From: Alphaproteobacteria bacterium
GTDB lineage: Bacteria > Pseudomonadota > Alphaproteobacteria > RF32 > CAG-239
Length of the DNA: 64,000 nucleotides
Direction: 5' to 3'
NCBI GenBank assembly: GCA_015062585.1
Contig: SUUJ01000001.1
Coordinates: 1-64,000, forward strand
In this document: positions 5,853 through 24,941 of the stretch, piece by piece
How the letters are laid out: every line of letters starts with the position of its first letter
How positions within the stretch are numbered: position 1 is the first letter of the stretch
Notes under the pieces: generated by a model
The model's input: only the letters and a program-made list of their open reading frames with translations
Told to the model about the DNA's origin: nothing
Databases searched by the model: none
Program-made: the position numbers and the translations under genes

Positions 5853-6194
5853 TTATGCCAAATTTTCGATACCCAACATCATATTTTCACGATATTCGGC
5901 GCCCCAAGCTACCATCGATTCTATAACCGGCTTTAGGGCATAGCCCACAGCGGTCAAAGTATATTCCACACGAGGCGGAATTTGAGCATAAACCTCACGA
6001 ATAACAAGTCCTTTTTCTTCCAGTACGCGCAAATTCGAAGTCAAAACCTTTTGGGTAATATCGCCCAAAGACTTCTTCAATTCGCCAAAACGCTTAGTCC
6101 CGTCCATTAAAGTTTGTATTATTTGCATTTTCCAACGGTCGCCAATTAACTTGACGGTCATTTCAGCTAAATACTTCTGCACATCATCTATCAT
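5853..6194 (-). CDS. HxlR-family transcriptional regulator
   Basis: A 113-residue winged-helix regulator of the HxlR (DUF24) type. Its core segments are the IGDRWKMQIIQTL helix, the GDITQKVLTSNLR recognition region and the RVEYTLTAVG wing. The start at 6194 is chosen because AGGAG lies 7 bases upstream; the longer reading frame has no such site. Members often sense thiol or carbonyl stress through cysteines, but this protein has no cysteine, so any sensing would work another way. It is divergent from the FadL-like gene, and two palindromes lie between them. Confidence 0.9.
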   Translation of the reverse strand: MIDDVQKYLAEMTVKLIGDRWKMQIIQTLMDGTKRFGELKKSLGDITQKVLTSNLRVLEEKGLVIREVYAQIPPRVEYTLTAVGYALKPVIESMVAWGAEYRENMMLGIENLA

Positions 6195-6229
6195 AAAAAA
6201 ACTCCTAAATATTCGCAGAAACACTACAT

Positions 6230-6265
6230 TAGTTTCCTTGAGGAAACTATCGCACTTTCAAGTGC
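6230..6265. promoter_or_regulatory. Two palindromes in the HxlR/FadL divergent region
   Basis: Two perfect palindromes lie side by side. AGTTTCCT/AGGAAACT with a 2-base centre spans 6231-6248 (one more pair at the ends), and GCACTT/AAGTGC with a 2-base centre spans 6252-6265. They sit between the HxlR start and the FadL-like start. The likely use is as operators for the dimeric HxlR protein, controlling itself, its neighbour or both. Confidence 0.55.
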
Positions 6266-6364
6266 TTACTTTACTTTTTTAACAGATTGAGGTTATAAAA
6301 GCAATAGAAAAAATAAACTTAATATACAAAAAATACAAATACTAACGGACACAAAGGACTAAAT

Positions 6365-21276: not shown

Positions 21277-21304
21277 TTGACATATCATATTTCTATGCTA
21301 CTCT
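21277..21304 (+). promoter_or_regulatory. Promoter of the nadM leader
   Basis: TTGACA at 21277-21282, a 16-base spacer and TACTCT at 21299-21304. The predicted start of transcription near 21311 places the leader hairpin at the very 5' end of the message. Confidence 0.7.
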
Positions 21305-21311
21305 AAAATTG

Positions 21312-21437
21312 TTCTTGAAGTTCGCAGGGCTTATGAACTTAAGAATGTTTAGTAAACTGAGCCGGTTTGAATAAATTAAGATAAATTTCGTTTATTTTAT
21401 ATTCTTTTGACGGCTCCTCATGTAAGGAGTTTTTTTT
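21312..21437 (+). ncRNA. Candidate NAD-pathway riboswitch-like leader, element 1 (nadM)
   Basis: P1 is TTCTT/AAGAA outside and AAGTTC/GAACTT inside with a bulged G, and is closed by the loop GCAGGGCTTAT (21324-21334). A second small hairpin, AAAC/GTTT (21354-21368), exposes TGAGCC, which can pair 6 bases with GGCTTA of the first loop. Downstream, CTCCT (21414-21418) can mask the AGGAG ribosome site (21425-21429). Alternatively GAGCCG (21359-21364) can pair with CGGCTC (21411-21416), which would break the mask. The predicted logic is that a loop-loop bound state frees CGGCTC and closes the ribosome site. All pairing was found by eye. Confidence 0.65.
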
Positions 21438-21980
21438 ATGACTGAATACAAATATACTCACGGTCTTTGCATTATGAGGGCACAACCTTTTCATATCGGT
21501 CATCAAAAGCTGATAGACAGAATGCTCAGAGAATGCCAAAGAGTAACGGTTGTTTTAGGTTCTATCCAAGAGCAAGGAACTGCTCGCAATCCGCTAAATT
21601 ATACCACCAGAAAAAAGATGATTCAAAACATCTATCGCCCAAGACCGGAATATGAAAGATTAAAAATAGTAGGTTTGTTTGATATAAATAATCCGGCCGA
21701 ATGGGGCGGATATGTCTTAGATTTTATTTCCGAAAGCTTTCCTGATCTTCCGCGTCCTGATGTTTACTATGCCGGTTCATCTTATGACGCGCACTGGTTC
21801 AAAGAATATTTTAAAAATATTGAGTTAGAAGATCGTACCGATCCTGATTTTCCGTTTGTAACCGCTTCAATGGTGCGAGATATGATTCGTTTTGATGACA
21901 AGCGTTGGAAAAACTTTGTTGCCAAAGAAAATCACGAACTGATAGAGGAATTTTTCACTAAGAAAAAAGGAATTATCTAA
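21438..21980 (+). CDS. nadM: NadM-type nicotinamide/nicotinate mononucleotide adenylyltransferase
   Basis: Adenylates NaMN or NMN to the dinucleotide. The 180-residue nucleotidyltransferase has the (H/T)xGH signature as PFHIGHQKL (about 18-26) and the second motif as ATASMVRDMI-like TASMVRDMIR (about 140-150), in the NadM rather than NadD style. It lacks the Nudix domain fused in some relatives. It begins the NAD salvage set and is preceded by a structured leader. AAGGAG sits 8 bases before the ATG. Confidence 0.88.
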   Translation: MTEYKYTHGLCIMRAQPFHIGHQKLIDRMLRECQRVTVVLGSIQEQGTARNPLNYTTRKKMIQNIYRPRPEYERLKIVGLFDINNPAEWGGYVLDFISESFPDLPRPDVYYAGSSYDAHWFKEYFKNIELEDRTDPDFPFVTASMVRDMIRFDDKRWKNFVAKENHELIEEFFTKKKGII

Positions 21981-21994
21981 AATTTTTAATACAT

Positions 21995-22068
21995 CGTCTG
22001 CGTCTTCTGCAGGGCTTATAGAAGACAGACGCCAATTATCACCCTAATAAGCCTGAAAGGGAAAATAA
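21995..22068 (+). ncRNA. Candidate NAD-pathway riboswitch-like leader, element 2 (pncA)
   Basis: It has the same architecture as element 1 with a different stem sequence. CGTCT/AGACG outside and GTCTTCT/AGAAGAC inside enclose a 2-base bulge and the identical 11-base loop GCAGGGCTTAT (22009-22019). After a 10-base linker, CCCT/AGGG (22042-22061) forms a second hairpin. Its loop holds ATAAGCC, which pairs 7 bases with GGCTTAT of the first loop. The 3' arm of this second hairpin is the ribosome site (AAAGGG), 8 bases before the ATG, so folding would directly hide it. The stems covary with element 1 while the loop is invariant. Confidence 0.68.
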
Positions 22069-22692
22069 ATGAACAATCGTATTTTAATGCGAATAGACTT
22101 CCAAAATGATTTTGTTCATCCGCATGGAAGCTTATCGCTAAACAATCAACAACTTATCAATCGTCATCAAACTTTTGCCAACGGACTGTTTAAGGACAGT
22201 TTTGATAAAATCATCGACAGCTATGATACTCATTTTGCCGAAACTTATGCTAATACAACCGAAGCCCAAAGTTATCCGCCGCATTGTGTATATTGTATGT
22301 GGGGCTGGATGCAGGCAGCTCCGTTTAAGTTCGGTTTGCCGGTTACCAATGTTTATAAGTCGACAACGGATATATGGCACGAGGTCAAAAATTATCAGGT
22401 TTTGAATGAAGATTGGCGCGGCAAAGAAGTCTATCTTTGCGGAGTATTAAGTGATGTTTGTGTTGTCCAAGCTATGAACGGACTGTTAAAACGCGGCGCC
22501 AATGTCGTTATTATCGAAGATTTGTGTCAAGGTGCTCAAATGCAAATCAGCGACATCTTACAAAAAGATATTTATCGTCCCATGCTTGACAATGGCAGAA
22601 TAAAAACCATTACCACTTCGCAATATTATAGAGCTCAGGTATTGGATAAAAAAATTCAATATAATTTAGTAAATAGAAATAAAGGAGAATAA
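22069..22692 (+). CDS. pncA: Nicotinamidase (isochorismatase-like fold)
   Basis: Converts nicotinamide to nicotinate and ammonia, the entry to the Preiss-Handler route. The 207 residues show the catalytic Asp in MRIDFQNDFVHPHGSL, the metal ligands DTH (about 52-54) and the PPHCVYCMWGWMQA segment, a lysine in NVYKSTTDIW, and the nucleophile Cys in GVLSDVCVVQA. The context (nadM, pncB, nadE) supports nicotinamide over other amides. It is translated behind leader element 2. Confidence 0.88.
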   Translation: MNNRILMRIDFQNDFVHPHGSLSLNNQQLINRHQTFANGLFKDSFDKIIDSYDTHFAETYANTTEAQSYPPHCVYCMWGWMQAAPFKFGLPVTNVYKSTTDIWHEVKNYQVLNEDWRGKEVYLCGVLSDVCVVQAMNGLLKRGANVVIIEDLCQGAQMQISDILQKDIYRPMLDNGRIKTITTSQYYRAQVLDKKIQYNLVNRNKGE

Positions 22693-22694
22693 TT

Positions 22695-24161
22695 ATGACC
22701 AGACCAAATATTTTAGCCGACGGAAATCCGCTTTTTTGTGATTTGTATCATCTTACAATGGCTCAGGCCTGGTTTAACGATGGCAAAGCCAATGATATCA
22801 AAACCTCGGAATGCTTTTTCAGAAAATGTCCGTTTAAGGGAAGCTATCTACTGGCTGCAGGCCTGGCCGAATTTAGCGAATGGCTGGAAAATTGGCATAT
22901 CTCAGACAAAGATGTCAGTTATCTTCAAAGCCTAAAAAACGCCGACGGAAGCTCCAGGTTTAATGACGAATTTTTGCAATTTATCAAAGATCAGCCTCTT
23001 CAAATCAGCATTGACGCTGTTGAAGAGGGTGAGATTGTTTTTCCTCATGAGCCTGTTTATTCAATCACCGGCCCGACATGGCAAGTCGAAGTTGTTGAGG
23101 CCGCTTTGTTAAATATATTTAATTCGCAAAGTCTGATAGCAACTAAGGCATCTCGTATTGTACAGGCCGCCGGCATTGATGGTGTGAATCGTCCGGTCTT
23201 AGAGTTTGGTGTAAGGCGCGGACAAGAACTCGGAGGATTTACGGCAACCCGAGCTTGTTATATCGGTGGTATGACCGGAACTTCAAATGTGGCAGCGGCG
23301 CAATATTATGATATTCCGGTAAGCGGAACAATGGCGCATTCTTTTATTATGAGCTATGAGGATGAAACAGATGCTTATAAGGCCTATTTGAAAGCCAGCG
23401 CCGGTAATACAACTTTGTTGGTAGATACTTATGAAACTCGACAAGGGATAAAAAATGCTATCAAAGCCTCTGAAGAAACCGATATTCCGTTGCAAGGAAT
23501 TCGTATCGATTCCGGTGATTTGGCCTTTTGGAGTAAAGAAGCACGCAAAATACTTGACGATGCCGGTTTTACGGATACTAAGATTATAGGTTCTAATGAT
23601 TTAGACGAATACTCAATAGCAAAATTAGTAGAACAAAAAGCTCCTTACGATATATTTGCTGCCGGTACTAAGGCTGTGACGGCTTATGATAATCCGGCCT
23701 TGGGCGGAGTATTCAAAACCAAGCAATATGCTGGCCGTCCGGTAATAAAAGTGGCTGAAGGAAAAACCACAATTCCCGGCAAAACAAATGTTGTTCGCGT
23801 AATAAAAGATGGCAAATATGCCGGTGATATTATTCAATCAGCTGACAGAAATATTGTTGCTGACGGCAAGCTAACCATAGATGTAAAATCACATATTTTG
23901 GGAAGTAACGGTAGCCAAATCTTACATTTTAGCAATGGCGAAGAAGCATATACTTTGCTAAGACCGTTAATGCGTAACGGCAAGTTTGTAAAAACTGTCG
24001 AAAAAGACTTGAAAGTATTGCAGGTAAAAGCCAAAAACAATTTACAAAAATTGGACGATAAACACAAAGATTTTACTAATCCGCAGACTTATCAGGTAGG
24101 AATAGAAAATTCTGTTTACACTTTACAACAAAATTTGATAAAATTGCACCAAGGGAGATAA
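22695..24161 (+). CDS. pncB: Nicotinate phosphoribosyltransferase
   Basis: Joins nicotinate and PRPP to make NaMN. The 488 residues include ADGNPLFCDLYHLTMAQ at the N terminus, EFGVRRGQ (about 168-175), the catalytic-His motif SGTMAHSFIM (about 210-219) and a phosphate-binding RIDSGDLAFWS segment (about 272-282). It starts 2 bases after pncA. An AAAGGAG ribosome site overlaps the end of that gene. Confidence 0.94.
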   Translation: MTRPNILADGNPLFCDLYHLTMAQAWFNDGKANDIKTSECFFRKCPFKGSYLLAAGLAEFSEWLENWHISDKDVSYLQSLKNADGSSRFNDEFLQFIKDQPLQISIDAVEEGEIVFPHEPVYSITGPTWQVEVVEAALLNIFNSQSLIATKASRIVQAAGIDGVNRPVLEFGVRRGQELGGFTATRACYIGGMTGTSNVAAAQYYDIPVSGTMAHSFIMSYEDETDAYKAYLKASAGNTTLLVDTYETRQGIKNAIKASEETDIPLQGIRIDSGDLAFWSKEARKILDDAGFTDTKIIGSNDLDEYSIAKLVEQKAPYDIFAAGTKAVTAYDNPALGGVFKTKQYAGRPVIKVAEGKTTIPGKTNVVRVIKDGKYAGDIIQSADRNIVADGKLTIDVKSHILGSNGSQILHFSNGEEAYTLLRPLMRNGKFVKTVEKDLKVLQVKAKNNLQKLDDKHKDFTNPQTYQVGIENSVYTLQQNLIKLHQGR

Positions 24162-24167
24162 ATCATC

Positions 24168-24941
24168 ATGCAAAAATTATGGAACAATTTGAAAAAAGGT
24201 TTGAAAAATCATCTTGATAACAACGGTTTTAATAAGGTCATCTTAGGTTTGTCGGGCGGACTTGATTCGGCTGTCGTTTCGGTGCTGGCAGCCGATGTTC
24301 TGGGCGGACAAAATGTCAAAGCCGTTATGATGAAAACTAAATATACTTCGGAATTAAGCCTAAAAATTGCCAGAGAAATTGCTTCATTAAACAATCTTGA
24401 TTATCAAGAGATTGATATTGACGAGATAGTTAATAACGAAATTATTTTCTTGCAAAAGTCATTTAATGAAAATGTTAAAGGTATAGTTCAAGAAAATTTA
24501 CAAGCTCGTATCAGAGGACAAATTTTGATGGCTTATTCCAATCAAAACGGTGGCATGGTCTTAGCCTGTGGTAATAAATCGGAAGCCTTGACCGGTTATT
24601 GTACTTTGTATGGTGATACTTGCGGTGGTTTAATGCCGATTGGCAATGTTTATAAATCGACCATATTTGAACTGGCAAAATGGCGCAATTCTTTGGGCAG
24701 AGTTTTGCCTGAAGAAGTAATCTCACGCGCGCCGTCAGCTGAGCTTGCTCCTGATCAAAAGGATGAAAATTCGCTTCCGCCATATTCTGTACTGGATAGA
24801 ATTTTGCAAAAAATGACAGACGAGGGCAAAAGTTCGGAAGATATAATCAATTCCGGCGAAGATAAGAACACGGTATTGAGAGTTCAAAGTTTGGTTTCTC
24901 GCTCTGCCTTCAAGCGTCAACAACTACCGCCGGCACTGTAA
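24168..24941 (+). CDS. nadE: Ammonia-dependent NAD synthetase
   Basis: Amidates nicotinate adenine dinucleotide to NAD. The 257-residue single-domain form has the PP-loop LGLSGGLDSAVVSV (about 26-39) and KSEALTGYCTLYGDTCGGLMPI (about 140-161). The glutaminase domain of larger NadE proteins is absent, so free ammonia is the donor; pncA releases ammonia in the same pathway. It completes a four-gene nicotinamide-to-NAD route. Confidence 0.95.
   Translation: MQKLWNNLKKGLKNHLDNNGFNKVILGLSGGLDSAVVSVLAADVLGGQNVKAVMMKTKYTSELSLKIAREIASLNNLDYQEIDIDEIVNNEIIFLQKSFNENVKGIVQENLQARIRGQILMAYSNQNGGMVLACGNKSEALTGYCTLYGDTCGGLMPIGNVYKSTIFELAKWRNSLGRVLPEEVISRAPSAELAPDQKDENSLPPYSVLDRILQKMTDEGKSSEDIINSGEDKNTVLRVQSLVSRSAFKRQQLPPAL

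Follow-up and report, generated by a model that had tools for sequence, protein, structure and literature searches.

A conserved kissing-loop RNA in leaders of NAD salvage operons of gut Alphaproteobacteria, a likely new class of NAD-pathway riboswitch

Introduction

Two classes of NAD+ riboswitch, both rare and lineage-bound, were the only ones identified in the literature searched, and the authors of the second class proposed that further classes could exist (PMC7749635). The NAD+-I class (the nadA motif), limited to Acidobacteria (PMC7749635), is composed of two similar tandem domains, each with a ACANCCCC bulge, and its binding occurs through ADP (PMC7297122). In the NAD+-II class (the pnuC motif), which occurs in Streptococcus, a pseudoknot pairs with the SD sequence and an A5 strand triplex is present (PMC7749635, PMC10085692); NMN is bound about three-fold better than NAD+ (PMC10085692). 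The guanidine-IV riboswitch (mepA or GGAM-1 motif), in the example of L. lactis, contains two hairpins with loop-loop pairing and a terminator with U7 near the start codon (PMC7736828). NAD salvage genes of other bacteria are also under the control of the transcription factors NrtR and NiaR, by protein-DNA binding. Neither an NAD+-III riboswitch nor a nadM or pncB riboswitch was found in the open-access literature searched, although absence there is not proof. Here we describe a pair of related leader RNAs in an alphaproteobacterial NAD operon and their relatives in other genomes.

Results

Genomic setting of the NAD operon

The window (the whole stretch of DNA analysed, 64,000 nucleotides of contig SUUJ01000001.1) belongs to a 1.5-Mb alphaproteobacterial genome, estimated to be 100% complete, for which the nearest named relatives are gut and rumen MAGs labelled Alphaproteobacteria. 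Downstream of element 1, the first of the two leader RNAs, the genes are arranged in the order nadM-like, pncA-like, pncB, and nadE.

21438..21980, plus strand: nadM-like nicotinamide-nucleotide adenylyltransferase (180 aa; best score 59 bits, under the NCBIfam equivalog cut-offs)
22069..22692, plus strand: isochorismatase-fold nicotinamidase (PncA)-like protein (207 aa; weak family scores)
22695..24161, plus strand: pncB, nicotinate phosphoribosyltransferase (488 aa; TIGR01513, 460 bits, over the cut-off)
24168..24941, plus strand: nadE, NAD synthase (257 aa; TIGR00552, 213 bits, over the cut-off)

The identities of the nadM-like and pncA-like genes, both below the NCBIfam cut-offs, are inferred and rest in part on the operon context. 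Neither nadA nor the NrtR winged-helix domain was found in this genome of estimated full completeness, and a nadD-like match scored under its cut-off. From the absence of nadA and NrtR it is inferred that NAD is probably supplied by salvage and that one of the usual regulators is missing; NiaR was outside the search. An ADP-ribosylglycohydrolase gene (PF03747; 24956-25768, minus strand) is convergent with the NAD operon and could be an NAD-linked neighbour.

Structure of element 1, the nadM leader

Element 1 is composed of two hairpins and a set of alternative pairings.

21311-21437, plus strand: element 1 (nadM leader), two hairpins and alternative pairings
21277..21304, plus strand: putative promoter, TTGACA at 21277-21282 and a weak -10 sequence TACTCT at about 21299-21304 (supported by the TTGA(C/T) spacing across leaders)
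21311..21346, plus strand: hairpin 1, P1 GUUCU/AGAAU, 5' bulge UG (2 nt), P2 AAGUUC/GAACUU
21324-21334, plus strand: hairpin-1 loop, GCAGGGCTTAT as DNA and GCAGGGCUUAU as RNA (hairpin 1 backed by RNAalifold and covariation)
21354..21368, plus strand: hairpin 2, AAAC-UGAGCCG-GUUU, with UGAGCC of the loop at 21358-21363
21359..21416, plus strand: anti-sequestor, GAGCCG (21359-21364) with CGGCUC (21411-21416), present in the MFE structure and supported by flanking-base covariation
21412..21437, plus strand: SD-masking hairpin GGCUCCU-CAUGUA-AGGAGUU, then a U run, abutting the nadM AUG (terminator-like)

The sequence-only reading had placed the hairpins and alternative pairings at 21312-21437, and all of its parts were present where it had located them. 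Its six loop-loop pairs also held, and consist of five Watson-Crick pairs and one U-G pair between GGCUUA (21328-21333) and UGAGCC (21358-21363). The GAGCCG/CGGCUC and CUCCU/AGGAG pairings are mutually exclusive, as had been claimed. That reading had overlooked a U8 tract directly 3' to the SD-masking hairpin, by which the hairpin also takes the shape of an intrinsic terminator.

The window holds three copies of the exact 11-mer of the hairpin-1 loop, where 0.02 would be expected, and the genome holds four. Copies 3 and 4 (26812, minus strand, and another contig) were found by inspection to lack the flanking stems and were set aside as chance occurrences; the 11-mer was thus rejected as a stand-alone marker of the element.

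When the whole element 1 leader was folded as a single sequence and compared with shuffles, the z score was -1.71, which is not significant. A lone sequence proves nothing, and the reality of the fold rests on comparative evidence. The same value, together with the existence of terminator-like hairpins and SD masking without any sensing, could be taken to favour hairpins that do not respond to a ligand and instead hold expression low, as constitutive attenuators, RNA thermometers, or mRNA-stability structures. Such passive hairpins would not need exclusive alternative pairings, an invariant loop, or an invariant bulge, and this explanation is considered very unlikely.

Element 2, the leader of the pncA-like gene

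A second copy of the fold precedes the pncA-like gene inside the operon.

21995-22061, plus strand: element 2 (leader of the pncA-like gene), second copy of the fold, with the 11-nt loop identical to that of element 1
21995..22031, plus strand: hairpin 1, P1 CGUCUG/CAGACG, bulge CG at 22001-22002, P2 UCUUCUG/UAGAAGA
22010-22018, plus strand: hairpin-1 loop CAGGGCUUA (RNAalifold, covariation)
22042..22061, plus strand: hairpin 2, CCCU...AGGG with loop AAUAAGCCUGAA, of which UAAGCC (22048-22053) kisses GGCUUA

The 3' strand of this hairpin 2, AAGGG, is the SD sequence of the pncA-like gene. The architecture common to both elements is P1, a 2-nt bulge (NG), P2, an A-GGG loop, and a small hairpin that kisses loop 1.

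Homologous leaders and covariation of the stems

A protein scan with nadM yielded 71 loci, and an automated layout search for the hairpin upstream of nadM detected the fold in 68 of them. Of the remaining three, L061 keeps the hairpin with its loop changed to AAUGGCUUA, as seen by eye, and L056 and L082 have none. A descriptor scan identified the same architecture upstream of pncA-like genes and, in addition, of nadM2 and nadV, which belong to a second operon, nadM2-nadV-x172-pnuC. The RNA is associated solely with this operon and with nadM-pncA-pncB-nadE, and NAD+ is the product common to both.

The leader types were counted separately, because a single mixed-type alignment misregistered the loops. 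Among the nadM leaders, 92.5% of the cells are paired and two-sided changes occur in 14 pairs. Their covariation score of 0.359 compares with 0.187 (sd 0.010) after shuffling; when the partner is slid by one column, pairing falls to 41-49%. The pncA-like leaders are 95.0% paired, with two-sided changes in 13 pairs and a covariation score of 0.434 against 0.208 for shuffled alignments; L055 (element apparently missing) and L049 (a degenerate row) are included in this alignment. Pairing reaches 100% in the nadV leaders and 99.1% in the nadM2 leaders, each with two-sided changes in six pairs. Among unpaired residues, G occupies the 3' position of the bulge in all but one of 92 sequences (91 of 92), and every one of the 92 has GGG in the loop. 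By unguided RNAalifold prediction, the bulged hairpin 1 was recovered in both large sets (nadM and pncA-like leaders); the small hairpin 2 was not predicted in either of them, and rests on the pair counts and the kissing helix.

Some loci depart from the usual arrangement. The nadM leaders of L047 and L066 are about 250 nt long, owing to extra sequence that separates hairpin 2 from the SD hairpin, and retain both pairing partners. In L141, L142, and L089, a nadV-type leader is retained, with the nadV frame downstream of it absent or degenerate; the leader may now control x172-pnuC. The L009-L021 congeners, with nadM-nadE and without the RNA element, carry a different conserved box, approximately GTCAATATAAATTATATTTGCAAA, upstream of nadM, possibly an operator or promoter. 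The gene following nadM in L025 (6191-7108) and L059 (G022) encodes what looks by eye like a fusion of an inorganic pyrophosphatase with a P-loop kinase; pncA, pncB, and nadE are not present at the nadM locus of G022.

The kissing helix

Four versions of the kissing helix were recognized, GGCUUA/UAAGCC, GGCCUA/UAGGCC, GACAGU/ACUGUC, and GGCAGU/ACUGCC. At one kissing position, 26 of the pncA-like leaders have U-A and six have C-G; at a kissing position of the nadV leaders, 11 have A-U and one has G-C. For loop 1 of the nadV leaders (UAGGGACAGU), pairing with the cognate loop 2 (ACUGUC) has a median energy of -7.8 kcal/mol, but pairing with loop 2 of the other classes just -3.1 to -4.0 kcal/mol; the U and C versions of the pncA-like loop likewise each favour their own partner. 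Loops 1 and 2 have thus changed in concert between leader classes. Within the nadM leaders the kissing core is either invariant or departs without compensation and never covaries, so that covariation leaves the kiss in this type undecided. Type B nadM2 leaders have only a short kiss, composed of GGC/GCC and an A.G mismatch. Both observations weigh against the riboswitch reading.

The inverted repeat formed by P1 and P2 adjoins the start site and could in principle be a DNA operator, for example for NrtR, mistaken for RNA structure. This alternative is all but excluded: what is conserved is the pairing and not the sequence of a palindrome, the second copy is intergenic and lies at an SD sequence, the kissing helix covaries, and the genome lacks the NrtR winged-helix domain.

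One family and its distribution

A covariance model built from nadM leaders alone picked up the pncA-like leaders of the same genomes and correctly placed eight nadM2 leaders in 82 kb, with E values of 0.004-0.2. The nadV leaders were detected by the pncA model. Detection in the reverse direction by the nadM2 model was weaker, with six matches, one of them away from any leader.

Of the 153 order genomes searched, 55 gave matches to the covariance models, and these represent 12 of 17 genera. The usual pattern is two matches per genome, about 650-740 bp apart, which is the spacing between the nadM and pncA leaders. Elements of the nadV type are present in seven and those of the nadM2 type in six of the 153 order genomes. 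In a sample of 385 genomes of the class, a single genome outside the family gave a match, and in a sample of 398 genomes of the phylum the window's own genome was the sole match. These large-scale searches used stricter filters, and weak members can be missed. Among the sampled genomes, the RNA is restricted to a single family and, outside it, to one genome of a different family.

Two loci under other labels, L077 (Lactobacillaceae) and L093 (Gastranaerophilales), contain the alphaproteobacterial operon together with its element, and are probably mislabelled or mixed MAGs. A phage origin was considered and rejected; viral contigs contained no nadV or nadV-type element, and just three distant nadM homologues.

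A narrow range could also be explained by a lineage-specific RNA-binding protein, and this counts against the riboswitch reading. As is known for many ribosomal-protein leaders, which function by autogenous protein binding, the leader could be the site of NadM, another salvage enzyme, or some other RNA-binding protein that stabilizes the kissing form. In favour of a protein site are the small invariant core, the narrow phylogenetic range, and the presence of two leaders per operon. Against it, the same fold stands before nadM, pncA-like, nadM2, and nadV genes with divergent kissing sequences, and NadM2 shares only 47-54% identity with NadM. The protein-site model is judged unlikely.

Expression platforms

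In most of the nadM leaders listed, TTGA(C/T) precedes the first base of P1 by an almost fixed distance of 33-36 nt. On the basis of this spacing P1 is likely to be the start of the transcript, the position claimed by the sequence-only reading, although the start site itself is inferred.

The GAGCC sequence of the nadM leaders has two possible partners, loop 1 or GGCUC, and this choice decides whether the SD-masking hairpin is formed. The base after GAGCC and the base before the GGCUCC partner are G-C in 35, A-U in six, and other combinations in 13 leaders. When the ON and OFF folds were forced, they differed by -0.7 to 5.7 kcal/mol (within about 6), and the ON fold was favoured in 47 of 51 leaders with the kissing energy excluded. 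Since the gap is small, a 6-bp kiss together with a ligand could tip the balance.

A run of U6-9 lies between the SD sequence and the start codon in all 67 distinct nadM leaders. With both strands counted, 1.03 Mb of these loci contain the SD-U-AUG string 70 times, approximately the number of leaders; only two of 33 pncA-like leaders have a six-T run. It is possible that the nadM platform acts by transcription termination besides SD masking, but this is inferred from sequence alone. The 3' strand of hairpin 2 is the SD sequence itself in pncA-like and nadV leaders, and the OFF direction follows more directly from this arrangement than from the nadM platform. A second AGGAG-T7-ATG leader was observed at 6180-6270 on the minus strand, before a small HxlR-like regulator ORF, with a TTTCCTCAAGGAAA hairpin upstream; this could be a further case of terminator/SD overlap or a chance occurrence.

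Search for known RNAs

In Rfam 15, the window elements gave no match at the gathering threshold and none of relevance at E values up to 10 (inclusion of the NAD+-I, NAD+-II, and guanidine-IV models was unconfirmed). With L083, L085, and L093 at E up to 1, the only match was to a microRNA model, below threshold and located outside the leaders. The ACANCCCC bulge of NAD+-I was absent from all 69 nadM leaders and from the pncA, nadV, and nadM2 alignments, and the NAD+-II core strings GCGUUGCGUC, GACACGGC, and UUAAAAACAAAAGGAG, searched as exact strings only, gave no match each. Loop 1 pairs with the loop of hairpin 2 and not with the SD sequence, and so an aptamer-SD pseudoknot of NAD+-II style is not formed. 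Membership in NAD+-I or NAD+-II was rejected on the tested features, in agreement with the sequence-only reading, which could not match the fold to either class.

Discussion

The fold and its covariation, the kissing helix, the gene association, and the mutually exclusive pairings are shown, and the regulatory RNA is genuine and conserved, with its fold strongly supported by evolution. Two properties generally expected of a riboswitch are met: a conserved covarying structure in the leaders of non-homologous and functionally related genes (nadM, pncA-like, and nadV), and a platform with mutually exclusive pairings (GAGCC/GGCUC versus the kiss plus CUCCU/AGGAG). Both elements likely represent a new, lineage-restricted, OFF-acting class of NAD-pathway riboswitch that shuts NAD salvage at high product, without binding or expression data to support it so far. 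Sensing of a small molecule, NAD+ or a close relative as the ligand, and the OFF direction are all inferences from the sequences.

The sequence-only reading had named the lack of homologues with a conserved loop and covarying stems as its refutation. This was tested and the outcome supports the claim, with the fold at 68 of 71 nadM loci, compensatory changes in the stems, and kissing-helix changes in the pncA-like and nadV copies. Control of NAD genes held as an association, exclusively with NAD salvage genes; a feedback-off riboswitch is supported, with its direction inferred and ligand binding unproven. A sister element, located before nadM2 and nadV of another operon (nadM2-nadV-pnuC), goes beyond that reading.

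In the proposed mechanism, a plentiful pathway product would bind near the bulge and loop-1 region (an inferred site) and stabilize the kiss between loops 1 and 2. In the nadM leader, the kiss would remove GAGCC from GGCUC, the CUCCU/AGGAG hairpin would form, and the ribosome site would be masked; because the SD hairpin directly precedes U6-9, transcription would probably be terminated as well. For the pncA-like and nadV genes, the kiss would directly stabilize the SD-containing hairpin of the leader and translation would be blocked.

NAD+ is the most economical guess for the ligand, since the two operons have it in common as their product; a protein ligand, NMN, or nicotinamide is not excluded. 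A riboswitch for another signal, such as NMN or NaMN (substrates of nadM), nicotinamide, or an adenine nucleotide, has precedents in the preference of NAD+-II for NMN (PMC10085692) and the binding of NAD+-I via ADP (PMC7297122), and nicotinamide is the input common to pncA and nadV. On the other side, the product shared by the operons is NAD+, and an OFF device of nadM driven by its own substrate would be wasteful; we consider such a signal a serious alternative, but the less probable one. It also counts against the riboswitch reading that the invariant unpaired core is small (the bulge G, loop A-G, and kissing GG), with no obvious pocket for a dinucleotide.

A bolder form of the riboswitch reading, judged more likely than not, is a third, structurally unrelated class for NAD+ or an NAD precursor, with a ligand-stabilized kissing loop, used twice per operon (at the transcript start via an SD-overlapping terminator and internally by SD masking) and in two salvage operons of gut Alphaproteobacteria. 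If true, it would add a third NAD-pathway class of different architecture in a compact and testable RNA, and would account for the regulation of NAD salvage in gut bacteria without nadA and NrtR. The two-tier design, with one copy for the first gene and its own copy for an internal gene, is unusual.

The RNA described here resembles NAD+-I in its location in leaders of NAD-synthesis genes, its proposed translational OFF switch, and its bulged stem-loops, but differs from it in having a 2-nt NG bulge, a GGG loop, and kissing hairpins. With NAD+-II it shares a leader in the NAD pathway, long-range pairing of pseudoknot type that controls the SD sequence, and an OFF design; it differs in its loop-loop kiss with a separate hairpin and in the absence of an A5 strand. 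The working principle is similar in outline to that of guanidine-IV and its Gd4v variant, an ON switch in which the second hairpin is the terminator and conserved residues of its loop are needed for binding. In the nadM leaders, hairpin 2 and the terminator-like hairpin are distinct structures, and loop 2 varies with loop 1 between classes; the conserved residues of the new RNA are instead located in loop 1 and the bulge, its predicted direction is OFF, and other genes are controlled.
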